Origin: Hyalangium ruber
Lineage (GTDB): Bacteria; Myxococcota; Myxococcia; Myxococcales; Myxococcaceae
Assembly (NCBI RefSeq): GCF_034259325.1
Contig: NZ_JAXIVS010000002.1
Span: 1 to 64,000 of the forward strand
Direction of reading: 5' to 3'
DNA length: 64,000 bases
The notes beneath the pieces were generated by a model. The model searched no databases and was not told where the DNA came from. It saw nothing but the letters and a program-made list of their open reading frames with translations. The position numbers were made by a program, and so were the translations under genes. Each line of letters starts with the position of its first letter. Positions within the stretch are counted from its first letter, which is position 1. This document shows, in pieces, positions 41,892 through 63,939 of this stretch.

Positions 41892-41906
41892 GTGTCCTCG
41901 GCGGGC

Positions 41907-41942
41907 AAAAGAGAAAGGGCGCTGGACCGGAGTCCAACGCCC
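41907..41942 (-). terminator. Displaced copy of the tRNA-Phe terminator
   Basis: Minus-strand hairpin with an 11-bp stem and TCCG loop (41917-41942) followed by a T-rich tail (41907-41916). It parallels the terminator of the intact tRNA at 49507-49542 and flanks the partial tRNA copy, so it is the original downstream flank separated by integration. Confidence 0.75.
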
Positions 41943-41960
41943 TGAATTCTCTCAACTTTT

Positions 41961-42006
41961 GTGCCCAGGGGCGGAATCGAACCACCGACACGGGGATTTT
42001 CAGTCC
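41961..42006 (-). repeat. Distal attachment-site copy (3' part of tRNA-Phe)
   Basis: 46 bp identical to 49563-49608, covering the tRNA-Phe anticodon arm through the 3' end. Beyond 42006 the sequence departs from tRNA, so this is not a functional tRNA. It marks the end of the integrated element far from the integrase. Confidence 0.93.
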
Positions 42007-42112
42007 GCCCAAGCGCCTGGCTGCCCTCCATTCCTCCTCTGGAGAGGGGGTTGGAACGGTCGAAAAGGGGCGATGTGGTTGCCCGTAATTTGCCCACGGC
42101 CGTAGGTGCTCC

Positions 42113-42292
42113 TTACGGCTTCTGGACGAGGAGCCAGTTGCAGAGCCTCCGCAGCAACTCCTCCTTCGCCGACTCGAAGTCCACCTTTGCTTCCTCTCGC
42201 TTATTGTACGAGGGATCGAGCAGGTTCTTCTTCGCTTGGGTCTCAAGGTACTTCTGCGCAGCATCACGAAGTTCAGCAGGAATATCGGCCAT
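42113..42292 (-). CDS. Small hypothetical protein of the island
   Basis: 59 residues from ATG 42292, which has GGAGG five nt upstream; the frame opens earlier at 42331 but without a ribosome-binding site. The sequence MADIPAELRDAAQKYLETQ is largely helical and charged, with a predicted amphipathic helix near DFESAKEELLRRLCNWL. It lies 42 bp after the HTH gene on the same strand and is probably co-transcribed. No family is recognised; a small regulator or partner of the HTH protein is possible. Confidence 0.6.
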   Translation of the reverse strand: MADIPAELRDAAQKYLETQAKKNLLDPSYNKREEAKVDFESAKEELLRRLCNWLLVQKP

Positions 42293-42334
42293 GTGGACCT
42301 CCGTCGTGGAACTTGAGTGCCATGAGGGCACTGG

Positions 42335-42733
42335 TCAGAACTTCAACTTGCGGATCTCTGCCCCGGGCGACTCCGAGTGGCTGAACGTGGACGCCTTCGA
42401 AGCCCTGCGGGTTTTGGAGCGCTGCGGCCCGGCGGTGGGAAGGCCCTCATTGATGACGCGCTCGACTTCCTCCCGGGGGATCCGCACGCGCCCATCGATC
42501 TCGACGGTCTTGATCTGGCCGGTGGCGATGAACTTCTCCAAGGTCGTCGCTCTGTCCACCCCCAAGAGATGGGCAGCCGCCTTCTTCGACAGCAACTCGG
42601 CGCCTGCCTTGCGCTGCCGCCGAGTTGGGACCGTAGCCACGGTGAGGGTCGGAATGACCAGGGAACTCGCTCCTTCTCTGAGCCGCGCCAGTAGGAGCCT
42701 GTTCACCTCCACCGCGCGCTCGTCGGCATCCAT
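42335..42733 (-). CDS. Excisionase-like helix-turn-helix protein
   Basis: 132 residues from ATG 42733. The middle (about 47-95, LLSKKAAAHLLGVDRATTLE and IDGRVRIPREEVERVIN) fits the excisionase/MerR-type HTH_17 fold, with the wing VEIDGRVRIPREEV. This is what recombination directionality factors in integrative elements look like. Open coding sequence continues in frame upstream to 42937, with a CxxC...CxxC zinc ribbon but no start codon, so the true protein is probably longer (see the 42734-43017 entry). Confidence 0.75.
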   Translation of the reverse strand: MDADERAVEVNRLLLARLREGASSLVIPTLTVATVPTRRQRKAGAELLSKKAAAHLLGVDRATTLEKFIATGQIKTVEIDGRVRIPREEVERVINEGLPTAGPQRSKTRRASKASTFSHSESPGAEIRKLKF

Positions 42734-43017
42734 GACCTCACGGCATCGGACACAGGGCAGGTCCAGTTCCTCCTCCCTCGGGGGACGGTACGTCCAGTCG
42801 AAGTTCCGGCAGCACTTCCGGCACGCCCAAGCCTTGGGCTGGTCGTACCAATCATCCGGACATCCGGAACCGAAAGGGACTTCCAGCCCGGAGGGGGCAG
42901 AGGAGGAGGCGCCCAGGTAGGACGATGCTTGAGCCGCTCACCTGCCGCCTTCGACTCGGCGCTCGGGGCATCCGTCATTGCTGGGGCACGGGGCGGTCTG
43001 GGGTCCTTCTCGTCCAT
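42734..43017 (-). pseudogene. Probable frame-shifted 5' part of the HTH gene (zinc ribbon)
   Basis: From ATG 43017 (AAGGA 4 nt upstream) a Pro-rich N-terminus is read (MDEKDPRPPRAPAMTDAPS), then the frame becomes nonsense-like. In the -1 frame, open between a TGA at 42938-42940 and the HTH ATG, the sequence encodes WACRKCCRNFDWTY...LPCVRCREVM, a zinc ribbon with Cys pairs near 42812-42823 and 42743-42754, continuous with the HTH protein. A single indel would join the parts into a protein of about 227 residues. No classical slippery heptamer is in register, so mutation or sequence error is likelier than programmed frameshifting. Confidence 0.5.
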
Positions 43018-43053
43018 AGGGTCCTTCTCCTCTAACAGGTGAGGACCCTCCAC

Positions 43054-43662
43054 TTGAAGGATTCAGGAGCCGCTCACACGCCTGCCCGCGCTGATGGCAG
43101 ACGAGGTCTACCTCCAAGCCACACCACGGACCTTGGCACACCGATCCACGTGGAGTTACCCTGAGGCCGTGCTCTGATGGAAACACCTCCTTCCGCCTTC
43201 TCCGAGCAACGCCGGTGCGACCAACCGTTGGTCAATGGGTGCGGACGCGGCGGGGGGTGGGATGAAACCCGAGCTGGTGCGCTCCACGATGGGGCAATGG
43301 GCGCGGGCCACCTGAAGTCAGGAGCACACTGATGCGGTGAACCCTCCGCGTGAACAAGGCCGGGCAGCTCTCGCTCGTGAAGGTTGAAGGAGAGCAAGGA
43401 CAACGTCGCCTCCACGTCACGGAGGGTGCGTCCCTGGTTCCCCCTTGTGGGGGATGCGCAAGACTCTTCGGCCGTTGCCGAATCCTGGTCGGCAGGGGGA
43501 CCTTGCTGGTCGTAGGCGTGGGGCGGTCCTGAGAAAACCGCCAAGGTTCAAGTGGACAAGGTCACCGTAGGTGGAGCGGGTTTGGGTCCAGACCAGTTTC
43601 GCGCCCTGAAGAGATCCTCATCGTGAGCCGATGGGTTCGCGATGCGAAGCTCCTTCTATAAG
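43054..43662. other. Island segment with no convincing gene
   Basis: Several short frames are open on both strands (the longest on minus, 43074-43544), but they lack ribosome-binding sites and recognisable domains, and their composition is low-complexity Pro/Ser/Arg. It could hold promoters for the divergent HTH and HNH transcripts. Confidence 0.4.
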
Positions 43663-43750
43663 ACGGGGCTCGCTGCGCGTGTATCCAAGTGACGGGACTC
43701 CGGCCGCTTCGCGGCCTTCTTCCACGTCACCCGCACGACGCGAGCCCCGT
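43663..43750 (+). other. 88-nt nested inverted repeat (structured RNA or DNA site)
   Basis: Outer stem ACGGGGCTCGC (43663-43673) with GCGAGCCCCGT (43740-43750), 11 bp perfect. Inside lie CGTG (43678-43681) with CACG (43734-43737), GTGACG (43689-43694) with CGTCAC (43725-43730), and a terminal GGCCGC-TTC-GCGGCC hairpin (43702-43716). The four stems share one axis. It ends 19 bp before the HNH gene and has no T-run, so it is not a simple terminator. Confidence 0.65.
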
Positions 43751-43769
43751 ACCCGCTCAGGTGCCCCGC

Positions 43770-44618
43770 ATGAGACCTCCGAGAAAGAAGCCCCTCGTCT
43801 TCGAGGGCATCAAGCTGGACGAGAGGATGGCCCTCGCCATCATCTCCGAGGGCTGCTACTTCGATCTGTGGCCTGAGCACGATGAGGACTACCCGTGGGT
43901 CTTCACCGTGAAGGATCACCGTCCCGTCTACCCGCTCCATGTCTACGTGTGGCTCAGGAACCATGGCCCTCTGCTTCCAGGCCACGTCATCCACCACCGG
44001 GATCACAACAAGCTCAACGCCCAACTCTCGAACCTGGAGGCGATCCACCGCAGTGACCACGCCAAGCGCCACCGCGAGGAGCGGCAGAAGTTCTCGCCTC
44101 GAAAGCGCGAGGACTACGGGGGCCTCTACCGGCCCCATGCCCCTGAGCCGGTACGCGAGCTGACGCTCTCCGAGATGATGCGGTTGCTGCGCCGAGGGAA
44201 GTTGTCGCGCCCACCGTCTCCGTCGTCTCGCCCGCCTGTTGAAGAGGAAGAATTCCGTGAGGCCGAGAAGAAGCTCAAAGCCGCCCTGCACGATCTCATG
44301 GAAGAGGTCGATCACCTCGACAGTGGGCAGCCCATCCCCCGAGTCACCACACGGCGCAGGGGCAACGACATCAAACTGGGGCTAGGCAAGAAAGCCGAGC
44401 GTCGGGGCTGCACACCAGCCGAGGCCGCCCTGGTACGTGCGCTGGTGAAGCACGAGCGGGCCGAGAGCCCTGACGAGGCCGTCGCCGCCGAGTTGGATCT
44501 ACCTCTCGGCGTAGTGAAGAAGATGAAGATGCGGCCTTCTGTGGATTTGGCCATCACTCGTTGGCGCTGCTATCAGCGTCTCCCTCCACCCGGTTTCCGA
44601 AAGAAGAAGGAGGATTGA
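43770..44618 (+). CDS. HNH endonuclease
   Basis: 282 residues from ATG 43770. A GTG at 43689 is also in frame, but it lies inside the strong inverted repeat and is rejected. Residues 69-101 carry the HNH core: GHVIHHRDHNKLNAQLSNLE, with His75/His76, Asn80 and Asn88 of the HNH_3 type found in phage and homing nucleases. A lysine-rich helical region follows, then a C-terminal KAERRGCTPAEAALVRALVK segment that may bind DNA. First gene of a three-gene plus-strand cluster. Confidence 0.82.
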   Translation: MRPPRKKPLVFEGIKLDERMALAIISEGCYFDLWPEHDEDYPWVFTVKDHRPVYPLHVYVWLRNHGPLLPGHVIHHRDHNKLNAQLSNLEAIHRSDHAKRHREERQKFSPRKREDYGGLYRPHAPEPVRELTLSEMMRLLRRGKLSRPPSPSSRPPVEEEEFREAEKKLKAALHDLMEEVDHLDSGQPIPRVTTRRRGNDIKLGLGKKAERRGCTPAEAALVRALVKHERAESPDEAVAAELDLPLGVVKKMKMRPSVDLAITRWRCYQRLPPPGFRKKKED

Positions 44619-44990
44619 ATGCCGCCAGTCAACCTCGATTACCTCTACGAAATCCTTCGCGACATTGCCTCGAAGCAGGACATCTGGAGCTACTCGGATC
44701 TCTCGGCGGAATACAACAAACGGTTCCGTGTCTATCACCCACCCCACGGGTCATGGGATGTACCCCTTCTCCAGATCAATACGAGAACGCACGCGGCTCG
44801 ACTGCCCGCGCTCTCAGCGGTGATCACCTATGAGCCGAGCGCAGCCTCGAATTACGGCCCCCCGGGAAAGGGATTCTGGGGCACCCCCGGTGTGCCGCCA
44901 AGGCCCGCCCGGGCTGATGACCGTGAAGACGAATGGCTCAAGATCCTCAACCAAGTGCATGCGGCTACCTGGCCGCCCCAGTTACCTTGA
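44619..44990 (+). CDS. Hypothetical protein following the HNH gene
   Basis: 123 residues; the ATG abuts the HNH stop, so translation is probably coupled. The sequence MPPVNLDYLYEILRDIASKQ has a helical start, and the segment YSDLSAEYNKRFRVYHPPHGSW resembles the small domains in which a plasmid or phage protein binds a partner, but no family is assigned. The C-terminal half is Pro/Gly-rich and overlaps the next frame. Confidence 0.6.
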   Translation: MPPVNLDYLYEILRDIASKQDIWSYSDLSAEYNKRFRVYHPPHGSWDVPLLQINTRTHAARLPALSAVITYEPSAASNYGPPGKGFWGTPGVPPRPARADDREDEWLKILNQVHAATWPPQLP

Positions 44991-45028
44991 TCCTTCCCAC
45001 AGAGTGCGGGGAGCCGGAGAATCTCCTC

Positions 45029-45904
45029 ATGGATCCCTCCGTGCATGCCGCTCTCAATAACGCCACTGAAGCCCTTGACGCAGCCAGGAAGAGGGGAGGC
45101 CCGAGAATCACCGAGGGCAAGAGCCGCAGCGCGATGAATGCCCTGCGTCACGGGCTGAGTGCCCGTCACCTGCTGTTGCCCGGTGAAGATGCCGTCGGAT
45201 ACGAGGCACTCATGGATTCGTGGTTCGTCACGCTCACGCCCACGACGATGCCTGAGGCCGCGATCGTCGCGCAACTCGGGGACCAGAGCTGGAAGTTGGA
45301 GCGCCTATCCAGGCTGGAGAACAACCGCCTGTGTGCTCGCCTGGAAGAGGAGCTGGAGAAGACCGAGAACTTCCAGCTCGTAGTCCACACGCGGCGTGCC
45401 CTGGAGGCGATATCCAGCCTTGCAGAGACCGTGGACGCGATCCGCGTGCCCTGGACAGAGCCGGAGATGACGGAAGCATTCCTGCGCGGCGTGGAGGGCA
45501 CCCTGGCCATGCTGCGCGAGGTACCAGAGCTGCCTGAGGCCATCATCCAGTCCCTGGCCACTGCGCTCGATCAGGTTCGGGACACTCGCAAGGACGGTCG
45601 CTTGGACCGGATCGCCTACGAGCACCTGGGGAACATGGCCAAGCTGGTCCGAGGATCGCTCACCGAGAAGCTGGCCCGCGAGGAGGCCGCCTTGGAGCCT
45701 GTACGTGAACGGCTGGCTGCCGAGGTGCTGCTGCTGGAAGACGGGGACCTCAAGAAGCTGGAGCGTCATCGCCGACTGCTGGAGACCTCCATGCAGCGGC
45801 AACTGGACTTGCTCTCTCAGGTACGCGCCCGGGTCGTCACCGCCAGCCCCGAGATTCAGGCCGAGGCCAAGGAGCTGCGAGTGAAGCTCCGACTGGTGAA
45901 GTAG
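45029..45904 (+). CDS. Conserved hypothetical with NALRHGLSA motif
   Basis: 291 residues from ATG 45029 (GGAGA about 9 nt upstream); the frame opens at 44933. The N-terminal part ITEGKSRSAMNALRHGLSAR followed by LPGEDAVGYEALMDSW is a recurrent pattern in bacterial hypothetical proteins. The remainder is almost entirely helical with long charged heptad-like stretches (RLEEELEKTENF; EKLAREEAALEPVRERLAAEV), suggesting a coiled coil. Function unknown. It is last in the HNH cluster. Confidence 0.65.
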   Translation: MDPSVHAALNNATEALDAARKRGGPRITEGKSRSAMNALRHGLSARHLLLPGEDAVGYEALMDSWFVTLTPTTMPEAAIVAQLGDQSWKLERLSRLENNRLCARLEEELEKTENFQLVVHTRRALEAISSLAETVDAIRVPWTEPEMTEAFLRGVEGTLAMLREVPELPEAIIQSLATALDQVRDTRKDGRLDRIAYEHLGNMAKLVRGSLTEKLAREEAALEPVRERLAAEVLLLEDGDLKKLERHRRLLETSMQRQLDLLSQVRARVVTASPEIQAEAKELRVKLRLVK

Positions 45905-46317
45905 CTCCCCCCACGGATCCTCCCGGGTTCGTTCTGGCAGCCCTTTCGGGCCAGCTCACGGTCCTCGCCCATTGCTAGGGCTATCGGATCTGGACGCTGC
46001 CCCCACCCACAGAGGTACAGGGGTTTCCTCGCCGCAGGTCCCTTTTTCAGGGGCCTGGCCCCCTTCATGGATCCCGGATGTTGGGGGTGGACTCGAAATT
46101 TTGGGGCCCACTTGGAGGGGAGACATCTTCGGCCCTGGACGACCTACGGACATGCCATCCTGATGACTTTACCCTGTGTTCGCCCTCTCGCTCCTCGCGC
46201 ACGAGGGGTCACGGCCTCCGGGGACTTCTTCCTCTCGGGGCCCACCTGCGGAGCTCCACGACCACTTCCGCAACAGACCTTGTGCTCCGGACTGCACGCC
46301 CGAGGTTCCGCCATGAG
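45905..46317. other. Non-coding stretch in the island
   Basis: About 410 bp between the plus-strand HNH cluster and the terminator of the minus-strand small gene. A short CTGG...CCAG hairpin with CCC-TTTC-GGG inside lies just after the 45904 stop and may end transcription weakly. No gene or RNA family is recognised. Confidence 0.4.
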
Positions 46318-46363
46318 AGATAATAAACAGGACGCGGAGCCCAGATCCGCTGATCGCGTCCTG
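46318..46363 (-). terminator. Intrinsic terminator of the 46405-46854 gene
   Basis: CAGGACGCG (46328-46336) pairs with CGCGTCCTG (46355-46363) over an 18-nt loop. On the minus strand the stem is followed by TTTATTATCT, a clear T-rich tail. It begins about 40 bp after the stop of the minus-strand gene. Confidence 0.75.
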
Positions 46364-46404
46364 CCTCCCTCCATGCCCAGTGAACGTTCCCGGTGGGGGA
46401 TGGC

Positions 46405-46854
46405 TCAGCTCTTCGGCTCCGTGGTAGGCGGCTGATCGTCACCTTCCCCGGGTTGATCGGGTGAAGCCTCTGGCGGCGGGTCAGCCCTCCTGGTCGTGCC
46501 CTGCACGGGGAACGGCGAAGCTTTCCTCCGCGTCGAGGGCTCCTCTTCCTCTCCTGGCTCGCTCCACGAACGGAGCACCAGGTCGTGCTCCTCATCCTCG
46601 GCCTGGATGGGGGACACGTCGTTGTGCAGAGCCCACAACAGCAGCGGATCCTCCTCCCCACTCAGCACGCGTTCGACTTGATGGAGCCGCAGTTCCACCA
46701 GGACCAGGATGGCCGAAATGGTGAGCGGGGCTTGAAGCTCGCGCTTCCGATCCTCCAGGCCGCCTGTCGCCAACTCATCCGCGAGGAAGCGAGCCCCCTC
46801 GACGGCGTTCCTGATCTCCGCCATCTCCGCACTCAAGCTGATGGCCTTGTGCAT
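46405..46854 (-). CDS. Small helical hypothetical protein
   Basis: 149 residues from ATG 46854, with AGGAGG 9 nt upstream; the frame opens at 46941 without a site. The first 75 residues are helical (ISLSAEMAEIRNAVEGARFL; APLTISAILVLVELRLHQVE). The C-terminal half is acidic, Pro-rich and likely disordered (EPGEEEEPSTRRK). A clean terminator follows. No family recognised; a phage-like accessory or regulatory protein is possible. Confidence 0.6.
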   Translation of the reverse strand: MHKAISLSAEMAEIRNAVEGARFLADELATGGLEDRKRELQAPLTISAILVLVELRLHQVERVLSGEEDPLLLWALHNDVSPIQAEDEEHDLVLRSWSEPGEEEEPSTRRKASPFPVQGTTRRADPPPEASPDQPGEGDDQPPTTEPKS

Positions 46855-46960
46855 CGTGCAGCTCCTCCTGGGGTGAGTGGTGGCCGCACCTCGACAATGC
46901 GGCCTTCTCCAATGGAGAGAGGAGCCCCGCCTCATCCGCAACGAGACTCGTCCCCGGGCA

Positions 46961-47074
46961 CTACGGCCCGTGCCTCACCCGCTCCCGAAGATGCTCGGCC
47001 AGCGCGAAGACGACGGCCGCCACCATCTTTCGGAGGAGTGTCGAGGCCAACAGCTTCCTCACGGCGCTCAGCAT
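46961..47074 (-). CDS. Possible 37-residue microprotein
   Basis: A short frame with AAGGGGG about 8 nt before ATG 47074 encodes MLSAVRKLLASTLLRKMVAA followed by VVFALAEHLRERVRHGP. It is an amphipathic helix with a central hydrophobic stretch and basic ends, a composition seen in membrane-active or toxin-like small proteins. It lies upstream of the 46405-46854 gene on the same strand. Could be chance. Confidence 0.3.
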   Translation of the reverse strand: MLSAVRKLLASTLLRKMVAAVVFALAEHLRERVRHGP

Positions 47075-47405
47075 GGCGCTCACCCCCTTCCCGCCCGACT
47101 GATCACGCCTCGCCCGCACCATCGCAGGTGCGGGGACGAAGCCCCCTCCGCAGTCCTTATGCCGCCAGCAGACGGAGAATTTCCACAGGGTCCGTAGTGA
47201 GGCAGATGCGAACGAGGTAAGCGGTGAATCGCGTACGGAAGATGCTGTCCGGCACTACACTTGAGGCGAAGTGGGCGGGACAGTTGCTTACCTGTAGTCA
47301 AGTGCCCTTTTGGCTGCTCCCTCTGGATCAATCGTCGTTAGGAGGGGAACTGAAGCTTGTAGGGTAAGCAGGAGAGTACGTACGTTGACGGCACCGCCCG
47401 ACGCG

Positions 47406-47434
47406 TTGACATCCGTAACGCATCTGATTACCTT
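47406..47434 (+). promoter_or_regulatory. Candidate promoter for the DUF3800 gene
   Basis: TTGACA (47406-47411), a 17-bp spacer, and TACCTT (47429-47434, weak -10). GCGTT/AACGC inverted arms overlap the -35 (47403-47421), and TACGTACG occurs on both sides. The leader to the GTG at 47507 is about 65 nt. Apart from the perfect -35 this is a modest match. Confidence 0.4.
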
Positions 47435-47506
47435 ACGTACGCAGTTTGCGGTTGGGAGGGCTGCCTTCTTTCGCGGTCCATAATCCCGGCCGCCTTTTTT
47501 TTTGCC

Positions 47507-48319
47507 GTGATCCTCCTCTACATCGACGAAAGCGGGAGTCTCGACAACCCAGCTGACCACTTCGCGGTCGGCGGAATGGCCGTTCACGAGTCGGACGTCG
47601 AAGCCATGCGCCTGGAGGTCGAGCGGATCGTCCAGAAGCACCTCGATCCCCATCTGCAGAAGGTCGAGCTCCACGCTCAACCGATGCGCTCAGGAAAGGG
47701 AGAGTGGCGCAGCATCCCCAAGGAGGTGCGGACAAAGCTGCTTGAGTCCTTGTCGCAGCTACTGGGCACCTTTAAACCGCCTTCGGGTCACCGGTACGGC
47801 CTTTTCTCCGTCATCAAGGCGCCCGCGGCTGTTGCCCACGCGGACCCGCTGGAACGGACCTTCGAGGAGCTTCTCCTCAGGTTCCACGAGATGCTCGTGC
47901 GCCCCAAGGGCCCCGAGGAATTCGGAATCGTCGTGGCGGACAAGGCCAAGTACGAGTCGATCCTTCAGCCTGTCGTAAGGCGGTGGCGCGAAAGTGGCAC
48001 CCGCTTTGCGCCCCTCACCAAGTTGGTCGAGGTGCCCCTGTTCGTCGACAGTCGCGCCACGAGGTTGATCCAGCTCGCCGACTTCGTAGCCCATGCCGTT
48101 TACCGGAAGTACCAGGCAGCTGACGGTACGTACCTGGAGCCTATGCTCCCTCGATTTGACGCTACTGGGGGCAAGATGCACGGTCTCGTACATCTCACGA
48201 AGGATCACCTGACCTGCACGTGCCTGCCTTGCCAGAGCAGGACTACGCAGAGGAAGGCCAAGGCCCCGAAGGCCAAGGCCCCGAAGACCAAGATTCCGAA
48301 GGTAGTCGGCGTAAAGTGA
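47507..48319 (+). CDS. DUF3800 domain protein
   Basis: 270 residues from GTG 47507. The start ILLYIDESGSLDNPADHFAV is the DUF3800 signature, with the catalytic-looking Asp-Glu pair of an RNase H-like fold; later blocks VADKAKYE and SRATRLIQLADFVAHAVYR (conserved D near the C-terminus) also fit. DUF3800 proteins are widespread on mobile elements and in defence neighbourhoods; a nuclease role is inferred. The C-terminus has a Lys/Ala/Pro repeat (KAKAPKAKAPKTK). A run of nine T ends 3 nt before the start and there is no Shine-Dalgarno. Confidence 0.85.
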   Translation: MILLYIDESGSLDNPADHFAVGGMAVHESDVEAMRLEVERIVQKHLDPHLQKVELHAQPMRSGKGEWRSIPKEVRTKLLESLSQLLGTFKPPSGHRYGLFSVIKAPAAVAHADPLERTFEELLLRFHEMLVRPKGPEEFGIVVADKAKYESILQPVVRRWRESGTRFAPLTKLVEVPLFVDSRATRLIQLADFVAHAVYRKYQAADGTYLEPMLPRFDATGGKMHGLVHLTKDHLTCTCLPCQSRTTQRKAKAPKAKAPKTKIPKVVGVK

Positions 48320-48383
48320 CGTACGCAAAGAGGCAGTCCCGTGAAGGGCTCGCCTAGAGCGATGCCCGCTTGGGAACGACTCC

Positions 48384-49436
48384 TCAGCGTAGGGTGGGGA
48401 TCTTCGCTGGGACGGCGTGCGTCGCGTAGAAGCGCCTCGTTGTGCTCGGGCTCTTGTGGTTGAGGAAGGCTGCAACCGAAGCTGGATCGGCTCCCTTCTC
48501 GATTGCCCAGGTAGCAACCGAATGGCGGAACCTCCCGGGGGTGAACGACGGGATGCCCGCAGCCTTACAGGCCGAGATGACCGCCATACCGTACTTCTCG
48601 CGGCCGAAGGTGCCCCGCTCCAGTAGCCGCTTCCCGGCCTCGAGGACTTCGGCGGACACGGCGGTGCGCAGCGGCTCGCCGCTCTTCGTCTGAGGACACA
48701 CCAGCACGCCCGAGACTCCCTCGGCATCGCCCCGGTACGGCTCCACGCTCCCCTCCTTGGCGAAGCGGATCAGCTCGGTGACGTGCCATCCGGTCCCGGC
48801 CTGCACGTCCATCCCATCGCGCCAGTGGGGCGCGAGATGCTCGCGGGCCAAGAGGTAGTGCTCCCGGGGGATCACCTTCACGCGCTTCCACTGCTCGGGC
48901 CTCGCCTGGGGCACCACCAGCGTCTGGAACGTCGGATCCTCGTTCACGGTGAGCAGGTGCTTCTCCTTCCGCAGCCAGGAGTAGACGCTCTTGAGGACCG
49001 CAATCCGGTGGGGACCGTTCCCGGCGCCCTTCAGCGCTGGCTTGATGTGATCCACGAGGCTGACCTTCCGCAGGTCGAGCCCCTTGAGCTGGTCCGCCCA
49101 CCACGCGAGGTACCGCTGCTGCTTCTCCAGCCACTCGCGGGAGTTCTTCTTCACATCCCGGTTCCAGATCAGGAACTCTTCGGCCAGGGGCGCGTCGAGG
49201 TAGATGGGCGCTTCATGCGGAGCCCCAGCCGGGTTGTACCCCTCGGGATCGGCCTCGAACCGCTTGAGCTGCTCCATCGCGGCCCGCGCGTTCCCGGCCC
49301 GGGTGCTGACCTTGTAGCTCTTCCCGTTGATCATCCGCCGGATGACGTAGACCTTCCGGCCCTTCGCATCCGTGCGGACGAAGCCGCCTTCCCACGTCTC
49401 CACGTAGTCCTGGCTCTTGCCCTTGGACTCGCCCAT
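48384..49436 (-). CDS. Site-specific tyrosine recombinase (integrase)
   Basis: 350 residues. The core-binding domain (about 85-165) is followed by the catalytic domain: Lys251 (TKSGEP), Arg304 and His305 (GRFRHSV), His327 (FLNHKS) and nucleophile Tyr337 (RRFYATH). The first catalytic Arg, normally in TGLR-x-x-EL, is replaced: the site reads TGWHVTEL (His218), and the box II His is Gly301. It sits directly beside the intact tRNA-Phe and should catalyse integration and excision at the 46-bp repeat. Confidence 0.93.
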   Translation of the reverse strand: MGESKGKSQDYVETWEGGFVRTDAKGRKVYVIRRMINGKSYKVSTRAGNARAAMEQLKRFEADPEGYNPAGAPHEAPIYLDAPLAEEFLIWNRDVKKNSREWLEKQQRYLAWWADQLKGLDLRKVSLVDHIKPALKGAGNGPHRIAVLKSVYSWLRKEKHLLTVNEDPTFQTLVVPQARPEQWKRVKVIPREHYLLAREHLAPHWRDGMDVQAGTGWHVTELIRFAKEGSVEPYRGDAEGVSGVLVCPQTKSGEPLRTAVSAEVLEAGKRLLERGTFGREKYGMAVISACKAAGIPSFTPGRFRHSVATWAIEKGADPASVAAFLNHKSPSTTRRFYATHAVPAKIPTLR

Positions 49437-49506
49437 CAGCTCGCGACCTCCCTCATGGGGAAACGTGCGGGAGGTTGCCCGTATTTTGCCCGTGGCGCAC
49501 TGCGGG

Positions 49507-49542
49507 CAAAAAAGAAGGGCGTCAGACCGAAGTCCAACGCCC
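49507..49542 (-). terminator. tRNA-Phe terminator (UUCG loop)
   Basis: On the minus strand an 11-bp stem capped by TTCG (49517-49542) is followed by TTCTTTTTTG (49507-49516). It starts 21 nt after the tRNA 3' end. It differs from the copy at 41907-41942 by changes that keep base pairing. Confidence 0.88.
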
Positions 49543-49562
49543 TGAAATCTCTACAGTTTTCT

Positions 49563-49608
49563 GTGCCCAGGGGCGGAATCGAACCACCGACACGGGGATT
49601 TTCAGTCC
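49563..49608 (-). repeat. Attachment-site copy within intact tRNA-Phe
   Basis: 46 bp identical to 41961-42006, spanning the tRNA from the anticodon stem to its 3' end plus one flanking base. The tRNA is complete here, as expected when the element replaces the 3' half it invades. Confidence 0.93.
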
Positions 49609-49636
49609 CCTGCTCTACCGACTGAGCTACCTGGGC
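49564..49636 (-). tRNA. tRNA-Phe (anticodon GAA)
   Basis: 73-nt gene. Acceptor arms GCCCAGG and CCTGGGC pair fully, D arm GCTC/GAGC, anticodon stem GGGGA/TCCCC with loop CTGAAAA (anticodon GAA), T arm GGTGG/CCGCC with TTCGATT, discriminator A. CCA is not encoded. Transcribed from a recognisable promoter at 49659-49687 and terminated at 49507-49542. Its 3' half is the insertion site of the island. Confidence 0.97.
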
Positions 49637-49658
49637 GTTGCCGCTGCGAGACAGCGCC

Positions 49659-62227: not shown

Positions 62228-63939
62228 GTCGCACCCTCGATAGACGCCACTACGCGGACATGTACGGCCCCACCACCGGGGACCGGGTGCGCCTGGGCGA
62301 CACGGGCCTCATCGCCGAGGTGGAGCGCGACTTCACCTCCTATGGAGATGAGTGCAAGTTCGGCGGCGGCAAGGTGCTGCGTGACCGCATGGGGCAGATG
62401 GAGGGCATCGGCGACGCCGAGGCGCTCGACTGCGTCATCACCAACGCCCTCATCGTCGACGTCACCGGCATCTACAAGGCGGACATCGGCATCAAACACG
62501 GCCGCATCGTCGGCATCGGCAAGGCCGGCAACCCGCGCATCATGCCCGGCGTGACTCCCGGCATGCTCGTGGGCGTCACCACCGAAGTCATCGCCGCCGA
62601 AGGGCACCTCGTCACGGCGGGCGGCATCGACACGCACATCCACTACATCTGTCCGCAGCAGGCCGAGGAGGCCATCGCCTCGGGCGTCACCACCTTCGTG
62701 GGAGGAGGCACGGGGCCGGCCACCGGCACCAACGCCACCACCTGCACGCCGGGCGCGCGCCACATCGAACTGATGCTCCAGGCCACGGACACGCTCCCCC
62801 TCAACATCGGCCTCACCGGCAAGGGCAACACCTCGCACCCGGCGGGGCTGGTGGAGCAGATCCGCGCGGGCGCGGTGGGCCTGAAGCTGCACGAGGACTG
62901 GGGCACCACGCCTCCCGCCATCGACTGCTGCCTGGGCGTGGCCGAGGCCGAGGACGTGCAGGTCACCATCCACACCGACACGCTGAACGAGTCGGGCTTC
63001 GTGGATGACTCCATCGCGGCGTTCCAGGGCCGCACCATCCACACGTACCACTCGGAGGGCGCGGGCGGCGGCCACGCGCCGGACATCATCCGCGTGTGCG
63101 GCGAGCCCAACGTCATCCCCAGCTCGACCAACCCCACGCGCCCGTACACGGTGAACACGCTGGATGAGCACCTGGACATGCTCATGGTGTGTCACCACCT
63201 GGACCGGGGGATTCCCGAGGACGTGGCCTTCGCCGAGAGCCGCATCCGCGGGGAGACCATCGCCGCGGAGGACATCCTCCACGACATGGGAGCCATCAGC
63301 ATCATCTCCAGCGACAGCCAGGCGATGGGCCGGGTGGGCGAGGTGATTACGCGCACGTGGCAGACGGCGCACAAGATGCGCGAGCAGCGAGGCCGGCTCT
63401 CCGATGAGCGCGGTGACAACGACAACTTCCGCATCCGCCGTTACGTGGCCAAGTACACGCTCAACCCGGCCATCGCGCACGGCTTCAGCCACGAGGTGGG
63501 CTCGGTGGAGGTGGGCAAGCTGGCGGACCTGGTGGTCTGGCGCCCGGCCTTCTTCGGCGCCAAGCCGGAGCTGGTAGTGAAGGGCGGCTTCATCGCCTGG
63601 GCACAGATGGGCGACCCCAACGCCTCCATCCCCACGCCGCAGCCGCAGCGCATGCGGCCCATGTTCGGCGCCATGGGCCGAGCCGTGGGCGCCACCAGCC
63701 TGGCCTTCGTGTCGCGCCGCTCCCTGGAGGAGGGCCGCGTGAACACCCTCGGCCTGCACAAGCAGCTCAGCGCGGTGCGCCGCTGCCGGGGCATCGGCAA
63801 GCGCGACATGCGCCTCAACGACGCGCTGCCGCGCATCACCGTCGACCCCGAGACGTACGAGGTGCGCGCCGACGGAGAGCTCCTCCGCTGCGAGCCCGCC
63901 ACCCACGTGCCCCTGGCCCGCCTCTACAGCCTCTTCTGA
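62224..63939 (+). CDS. ureC: Urease alpha subunit UreC (catalytic)
   Basis: 571 residues, standard length. All nickel ligands are present at the Klebsiella positions plus four: His138, His140, carbamylated Lys221, His250, His276 and Asp364, with the flap Cys323 and catalytic His324 (MVCHHLD). It hydrolyses urea to ammonia and carbamate. The GTG start overlaps the ureAB stop. ureF follows 9 bp downstream. Confidence 0.98.

Follow-up and report, generated by a model that had tools for sequence, protein, structure and literature searches.

What is the role of an 88-nt nested inverted repeat lying directly before the gene of a small mobile nuclease, and does it act as RNA or as DNA? The repeat occupies positions 43663–43750 on the plus strand of the window, the 64,000-nucleotide stretch of the 10.8 Mb Hyalangium ruber genome that was analysed, within an island of about 7.6 kb. 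The island is bordered by a partial tRNA-Phe copy (41957–42006) and a tRNA gene (49563–49636), the two tRNA copies being 98% identical over 50 nt. The repeat is followed by the HNH gene (43770–44618, plus strand), whose 282-aa product has HNH_3 as its only Pfam match above threshold and a conserved C-terminal region predicted to be helical. Further along the same strand are a partner ORF (45029–45904; 291 aa, all-helical in its predicted structure), and a DUF3800 gene (47507–48319), and annotation of the island places an HTH_17/excisionase-like gene (42335–42733) and a tyrosine integrase (48384–49436) on the minus strand. The island further holds a 123-aa ORF and, on the minus strand, a 178-aa ORF (46405–46941) that has no family match; it shares 84–85% identity with its counterparts in three related islands and 65%, over part of its length, with that of a fourth.

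The minimum free energy of the 88 nt is −53.0 kcal/mol versus a mean of −33.6 for shuffled sequences (z = −6.4, with none of 200 shuffles as stable). The fold reproduces the perfect 11-bp outer stem and 6-bp tip hairpin, without a T-tail, that the first-pass annotation had described: the arms of the outer stem P1 (43663–43673 and 43740–43750) enclose two inner stems of 5 bp and 9 bp, the latter containing one bulged base, and the tip hairpin with its UUC loop (43702–43716). That annotation had also called the repeat the strongest secondary structure of the island, 19 bp before the HNH start, and both statements hold. It tops the 3826 88-nt windows per strand for stability on both strands (2-nt steps across 41901–49640), with −53.0 and −59.3 kcal/mol on the two strands and −47.6 and −45.4 for the next separate windows, and 19 nt separate its 3′ end from the ATG at 43770. 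A dispersed repeat was rejected because the hairpin is present as one copy in its own genome by both DNA and covariance-model searches; other DNA matches there span 19–46 nt at E values of 0.17 or more, and the next covariance-model match has E 0.32. Membership of a known Rfam family was likewise rejected, since no curated covariance model matches the hairpin, either in the window or in related loci.

The hairpin is conserved. A protein search found HNH homologues in 13 of 193 genomes, its own included, and a profile search gave 24 of 195 genomes of the phylum, 11 of which match only over a small region about the HNH domain. In all 12 HNH copies that possess the 5′ part of the gene, a perfect inverted repeat lies shortly before the start codon; its arms are 11–17 bp long and stand 47–67 nt apart, with inner stems nested between them. 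Repeats of this type (arms of at least 11, spacer 20–80) number 22 in the 231,571 bases of the 12 loci; 12 are the HNH hairpins and 10 lie elsewhere. Orientation and position are fixed: in 11 loci the hairpin is on the gene's strand 7–46 nt before the ATG, and in G096 the distance is 38 nt by coordinates. By protein identity the loci represent eight lineages, namely the window, G008, five close relatives (G014, G050, G113, G121 and G131), G018, G017, G093, G085 and G096. The G085 and G096 hairpins were recognised by place and arms alone, being missed by R1, a covariance model built from eight hairpins, the window's among them, and the G008 hairpin scores weakly with R1 (E 0.008). In the 11 loci other than G096, windows as stable as the hairpin number 0–6 per locus in nine and are more numerous in G018 (60 of 1493) and G085 (37 of 1494). 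The apex CGCU(T/G)CGCG is common to the window hairpin, G093 and the five close relatives. In G014 the HNH gene is split over two contigs (L095, L096), with the hairpin and the 5′ piece on one of them; the sequence ahead of the downstream piece is unrelated and may stem from insertion of a mobile element. In G139 (L024/L101), the remaining one of the 13 genomes, only a C-terminal piece of the HNH gene is present; it adjoins a tRNA-like sequence, from which an unrelated strong hairpin separates it.

Comparison of the arms reveals compensatory change. Alignment A9 was made with MAFFT from sequence only and contains 10 hairpins (G085 and G096 left out); the structure tested on it had been predicted on the eight-row alignment A5. 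On A9, 85.2% of pairing cells are able to pair, versus 77.6% in shuffles and 45–52% when the structure is slid along the alignment. Changes on both sides are found in 12 of 31 pairs, versus 5.3 in shuffles (0 of 500 with as many) and no more than 8 when the structure is slid; the shuffle control leaves relatedness in, and the slid control handles it better. One of five covariation measures, the occurrence of further pair types, is weak, with 19 of 500 shuffles as high. Both-side changes number 11 of 31 pairs on A5 and 15 of 28 on A11, an alignment that was itself fitted to the structure model. For the outer-stem arm the window has CGGGGCTCGC, the close group CGGGGACCTGG(G/T)CG, G018 CGGGGAAATGGTCGG, G017 CGGGGAACTGGTCG and G085 GGCGGGAAGGACC; pairing of this stem is kept across 11 sequences except for one G-T in G121 and one T-C in G014. 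The arms differ by lineage yet still pair, and the covariation check proposed at the outset for homologous HNH loci gave the compensatory pattern that would support a functional structured RNA.

The hairpin is also linked to the HNH gene in the data searched. Over 195 genomes R1 gave nine matches at E ≤ 0.01, eight of them its own source sequences and the ninth, G014, a new one that precedes the 5′ part of a split HNH gene. A second model, R2, built from nine hairpins that again include the window's, recovered these nine, all at E < 1e-8, with nothing else below E 0.02 among the 22 candidates scored per genome; it also matched the opposite strand of these nine, and G008 was not found in the genome-wide scans. 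Sixteen weak R2 matches (E 0.02–1) fall outside HNH hairpins, and the three inspected have outer stems of 6–7 bp and lie inside long open frames. Among 41 further loci R1 detects the hairpin at E ≤ 0.01 in eight, all with the HNH gene; four more HNH-linked loci have no R1 match: in L104 and L128 the stretch ends short of the hairpin, and the other two, G085 and G096, are diverged. R1 found no hairpin at 18 partner-ORF loci that have no HNH gene by profile search, in stretches reaching at most 1.5 kb upstream, nor at 11 loci with the HNH domain only. When DNA of 14 of these 18 partner-only loci was compared with five HNH-bearing islands, shared sequence, if any, started mainly around the start of the partner, so that hairpin and HNH gene look like one exchangeable cassette. 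Within the data searched, these model matches indicate that the hairpin travels with the HNH gene and not with the partner ORF or other neighbours. Beyond these genomes, two scans of viral contigs gave 23 and 2 loci matching the short stretch around the HNH domain, and two further viral-contig scans, a single-protein search of a genome-contig collection and a search of plasmids gave no HNH match; a phage search returned three records over 18% of the query.

The first-pass annotation had offered three roles for the repeat: a non-coding RNA, a cis-regulator or the target site of the nuclease. Position favours the second without forcing a choice against the other two. Location on the same strand, 7–46 nt before the ATG, together with a nested fold containing asymmetric loops, fits a message leader, and the nested stems, asymmetric internal loops and partly shared apex make the element more like an RNA than a dimer operator. 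We therefore favour, with confidence evenly divided between acceptance and doubt, a structured leader in the 5′ untranslated region of the HNH mRNA that acts in cis on the HNH gene; its transcription, action as RNA and regulatory effect are presumed. Such a leader would most likely set how much nuclease is made, either by affecting message stability or by giving the HNH protein, or some other factor, a place to bind beside the ribosome site. Sequestration of that site was rejected as a general mechanism: it lies 3′ of the hairpin, and its predicted openness (16 to 3 nt before the ATG) changes by less than 0.1 in eight of 11 loci and falls in G018 (0.67 to 0.25), G014 (0.48 to 0.28) and G121 (0.79 to 0.62). 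Extending the folded sequence by 60 coding nt leaves the hairpin in the best fold of nine of 11 loci, G113 and G014 being the exceptions. Directly abutting the 5′ arm is TATAAG (43657–43662, plus strand), a −10-like hexamer that is suggestive only; a TATA-like hexamer with at most two mismatches adjoins the arm in seven of 12 loci but in three of eight lineages, and a start at this hexamer would fall inside the 5′ arm.

Precedents for a leader of this kind exist in T4-like phages, where, according to two reports, stable hairpins before homing endonuclease genes limit translation (PMC2988022, PMC3014915). The HNH hairpin shares with the I-TevI, mobE, segB and seg43 leaders, as these reports present them, a very stable hairpin immediately upstream of a mobile nuclease gene (PMC2988022, PMC3014915). 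In the same reports the ribosome site is sequestered, or implicated as such, for I-TevI, mobE and segB, whereas at the HNH hairpin it is mostly free, and sequestration in the stem is not a general trait of the 11 loci. The hairpin of seg43 of Aeromonas phage 25 is described as leaving the ribosome site free, with no role assigned to it (PMC2988022); the HNH hairpin likewise leaves the site free in most loci. A further trait of the T4-type leaders is a proximal promoter from which transcripts lacking part of the hairpin arise; of this the TATA-like hexamers in seven of 12 loci are at most suggestive. Unlike the phage leaders as portrayed there, the HNH hairpin belongs to a whole family of genes on chromosomal islands, across which it is conserved.

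Pairing itself is neutral as to strand and nucleic acid, G-U pairs showing no enrichment on the sense strand. In 11 hairpins they amount to 19 of 354 pairs in the sense and 17 of 355 in the antisense orientation, with nearly equal summed energies; typed cells of the P1 and P4 arms contain 2 G-T and 0 A-C among 211, too few to count. Consensus folds of the sense and antisense strands reach −11.6 and −11.4 on A9, −29.6 and −22.5 on A5, and −38.4 and −36.5 on A11, an alignment already fitted to the sense structure. Equal folding of the two strands, equal G-U counts, and outer arms that are perfect or nearly so would also suit a DNA element. In that case the inverted repeat would be used as a hairpin or cruciform, whether cut by the nuclease, bound by a protein, or employed in packaging or transfer, and its place would reflect linkage of nuclease and site. 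HNH proteins cut DNA, and integron attC-type sites keep structure while their sequence drifts, both of which count for such an element. However, arms 47–67 nt apart with nested inner stems are unlike the usual dimer sites, and the fixed orientation close to a start codon also speaks against it. Because the strand-neutral G-U counts weigh against RNA, confidence in the message leader is held at an even balance, and a DNA element is kept as rather unlikely but deserving of weight.

One form of DNA element, a cos site for phage packaging accompanied by a terminase-like partner, was rejected. In related islands the partner ORF follows the HNH gene on its strand, in some cases after intervening ORFs, and the partner family occurs in 35 of 195 genomes of the phylum. 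The window's member has no Pfam, NCBIfam or PHROG match, other members have weak PHROG matches (E 0.021 or more), and the structure model (pLDDT 79.2) has no fold match in PDB or BFVD at E ≤ 0.001, terminase-like folds included, so that a cos-type module is unsupported. The partner profile matches an interferon chain among PDB sequences at E 0.0008 and one more sequence at 0.11, which we read as helical chance similarity.

IscB/IsrB nucleases use an upstream RNA, and HEARO or omega RNA sits upstream of the HNH-containing IsrB-IscB protein, a model for a separate small RNA that would bind the HNH protein as cofactor or guide. Linkage with the nuclease gene and structure kept more than sequence between lineages accord with such an RNA, but the protein is only 282 aa long with HNH_3 as its sole Pfam domain, and unlike the IscB-IsrB systems it has no RuvC match in Pfam and its hairpin no Rfam match; we regard a separate RNA as improbable. 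The HNH profile has no sequence match in PDB, the structure model (pLDDT 51.7) and its fold search were uninformative, and a defence library gave only weak homing-endonuclease matches (E 0.004 and 0.03). A bolder form, in which a small stand-alone HNH nuclease outside the IscB/Cas9 lineage is loaded with an 88-nt RNA made from the leader of its own gene, and this RNA directs or licenses cutting, appears to us a long shot; if true, it would represent a ribonucleoprotein of myxobacterial tRNA-inserted islands.

A transcription barrier or terminator insulating the HNH operon from upstream transcription is very improbable: the very stable GC-rich stem does lie between divergently oriented genes in related loci where such genes are visible, but no T-run follows the hairpin in 11 loci and the inner stems covary too. 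An intrinsic terminator in particular was rejected by the missing T-run at the window hairpin and ten further loci.

The hairpin is thus a conserved structured element that Rfam does not list and that is tied to one mobile nuclease family. It makes a compact test case for the question of why the small nucleases of mobile elements bear structured leaders, whether for control of a dangerous enzyme or as part of an RNA-protein partnership. One paper reportedly described the DUF3800 and int-alpA RNA motifs; our literature search found no description of the HNH hairpin, which that paper may mention. Some islands with the hairpin carry these other orphan motifs, DUF3800-VI here and int-alpA in five related islands. 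The DUF3800-VI RNA (RF02915, 38.2 bits; 47449–47492, plus strand) is a second structured element directly before a mobile-element gene in the same island, but it precedes a different gene, DUF3800, and the HNH hairpin does not match its model. DUF3800 proteins have an RNaseH-like fold and are associated with putative ncRNAs, according to one report (PMC10910872). The int-alpA RNA (RF02996) is another structured RNA found in islands of this type and, unlike the HNH hairpin, lies on the opposite strand before divergent genes. An Rfam search found none in the window. In the five related islands that carry it, it lies upstream of the hairpin, once above the Rfam gathering score (L022 2777–2839, equivalent to L097 9630–9692) and four times 2.6–4.1 bits below it (L017, L018, L020, L021). 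Outside the island, positions 62377–62671 on the minus strand of the window match the Rfam family 5_ureB_sRNA with 115.9 bits.
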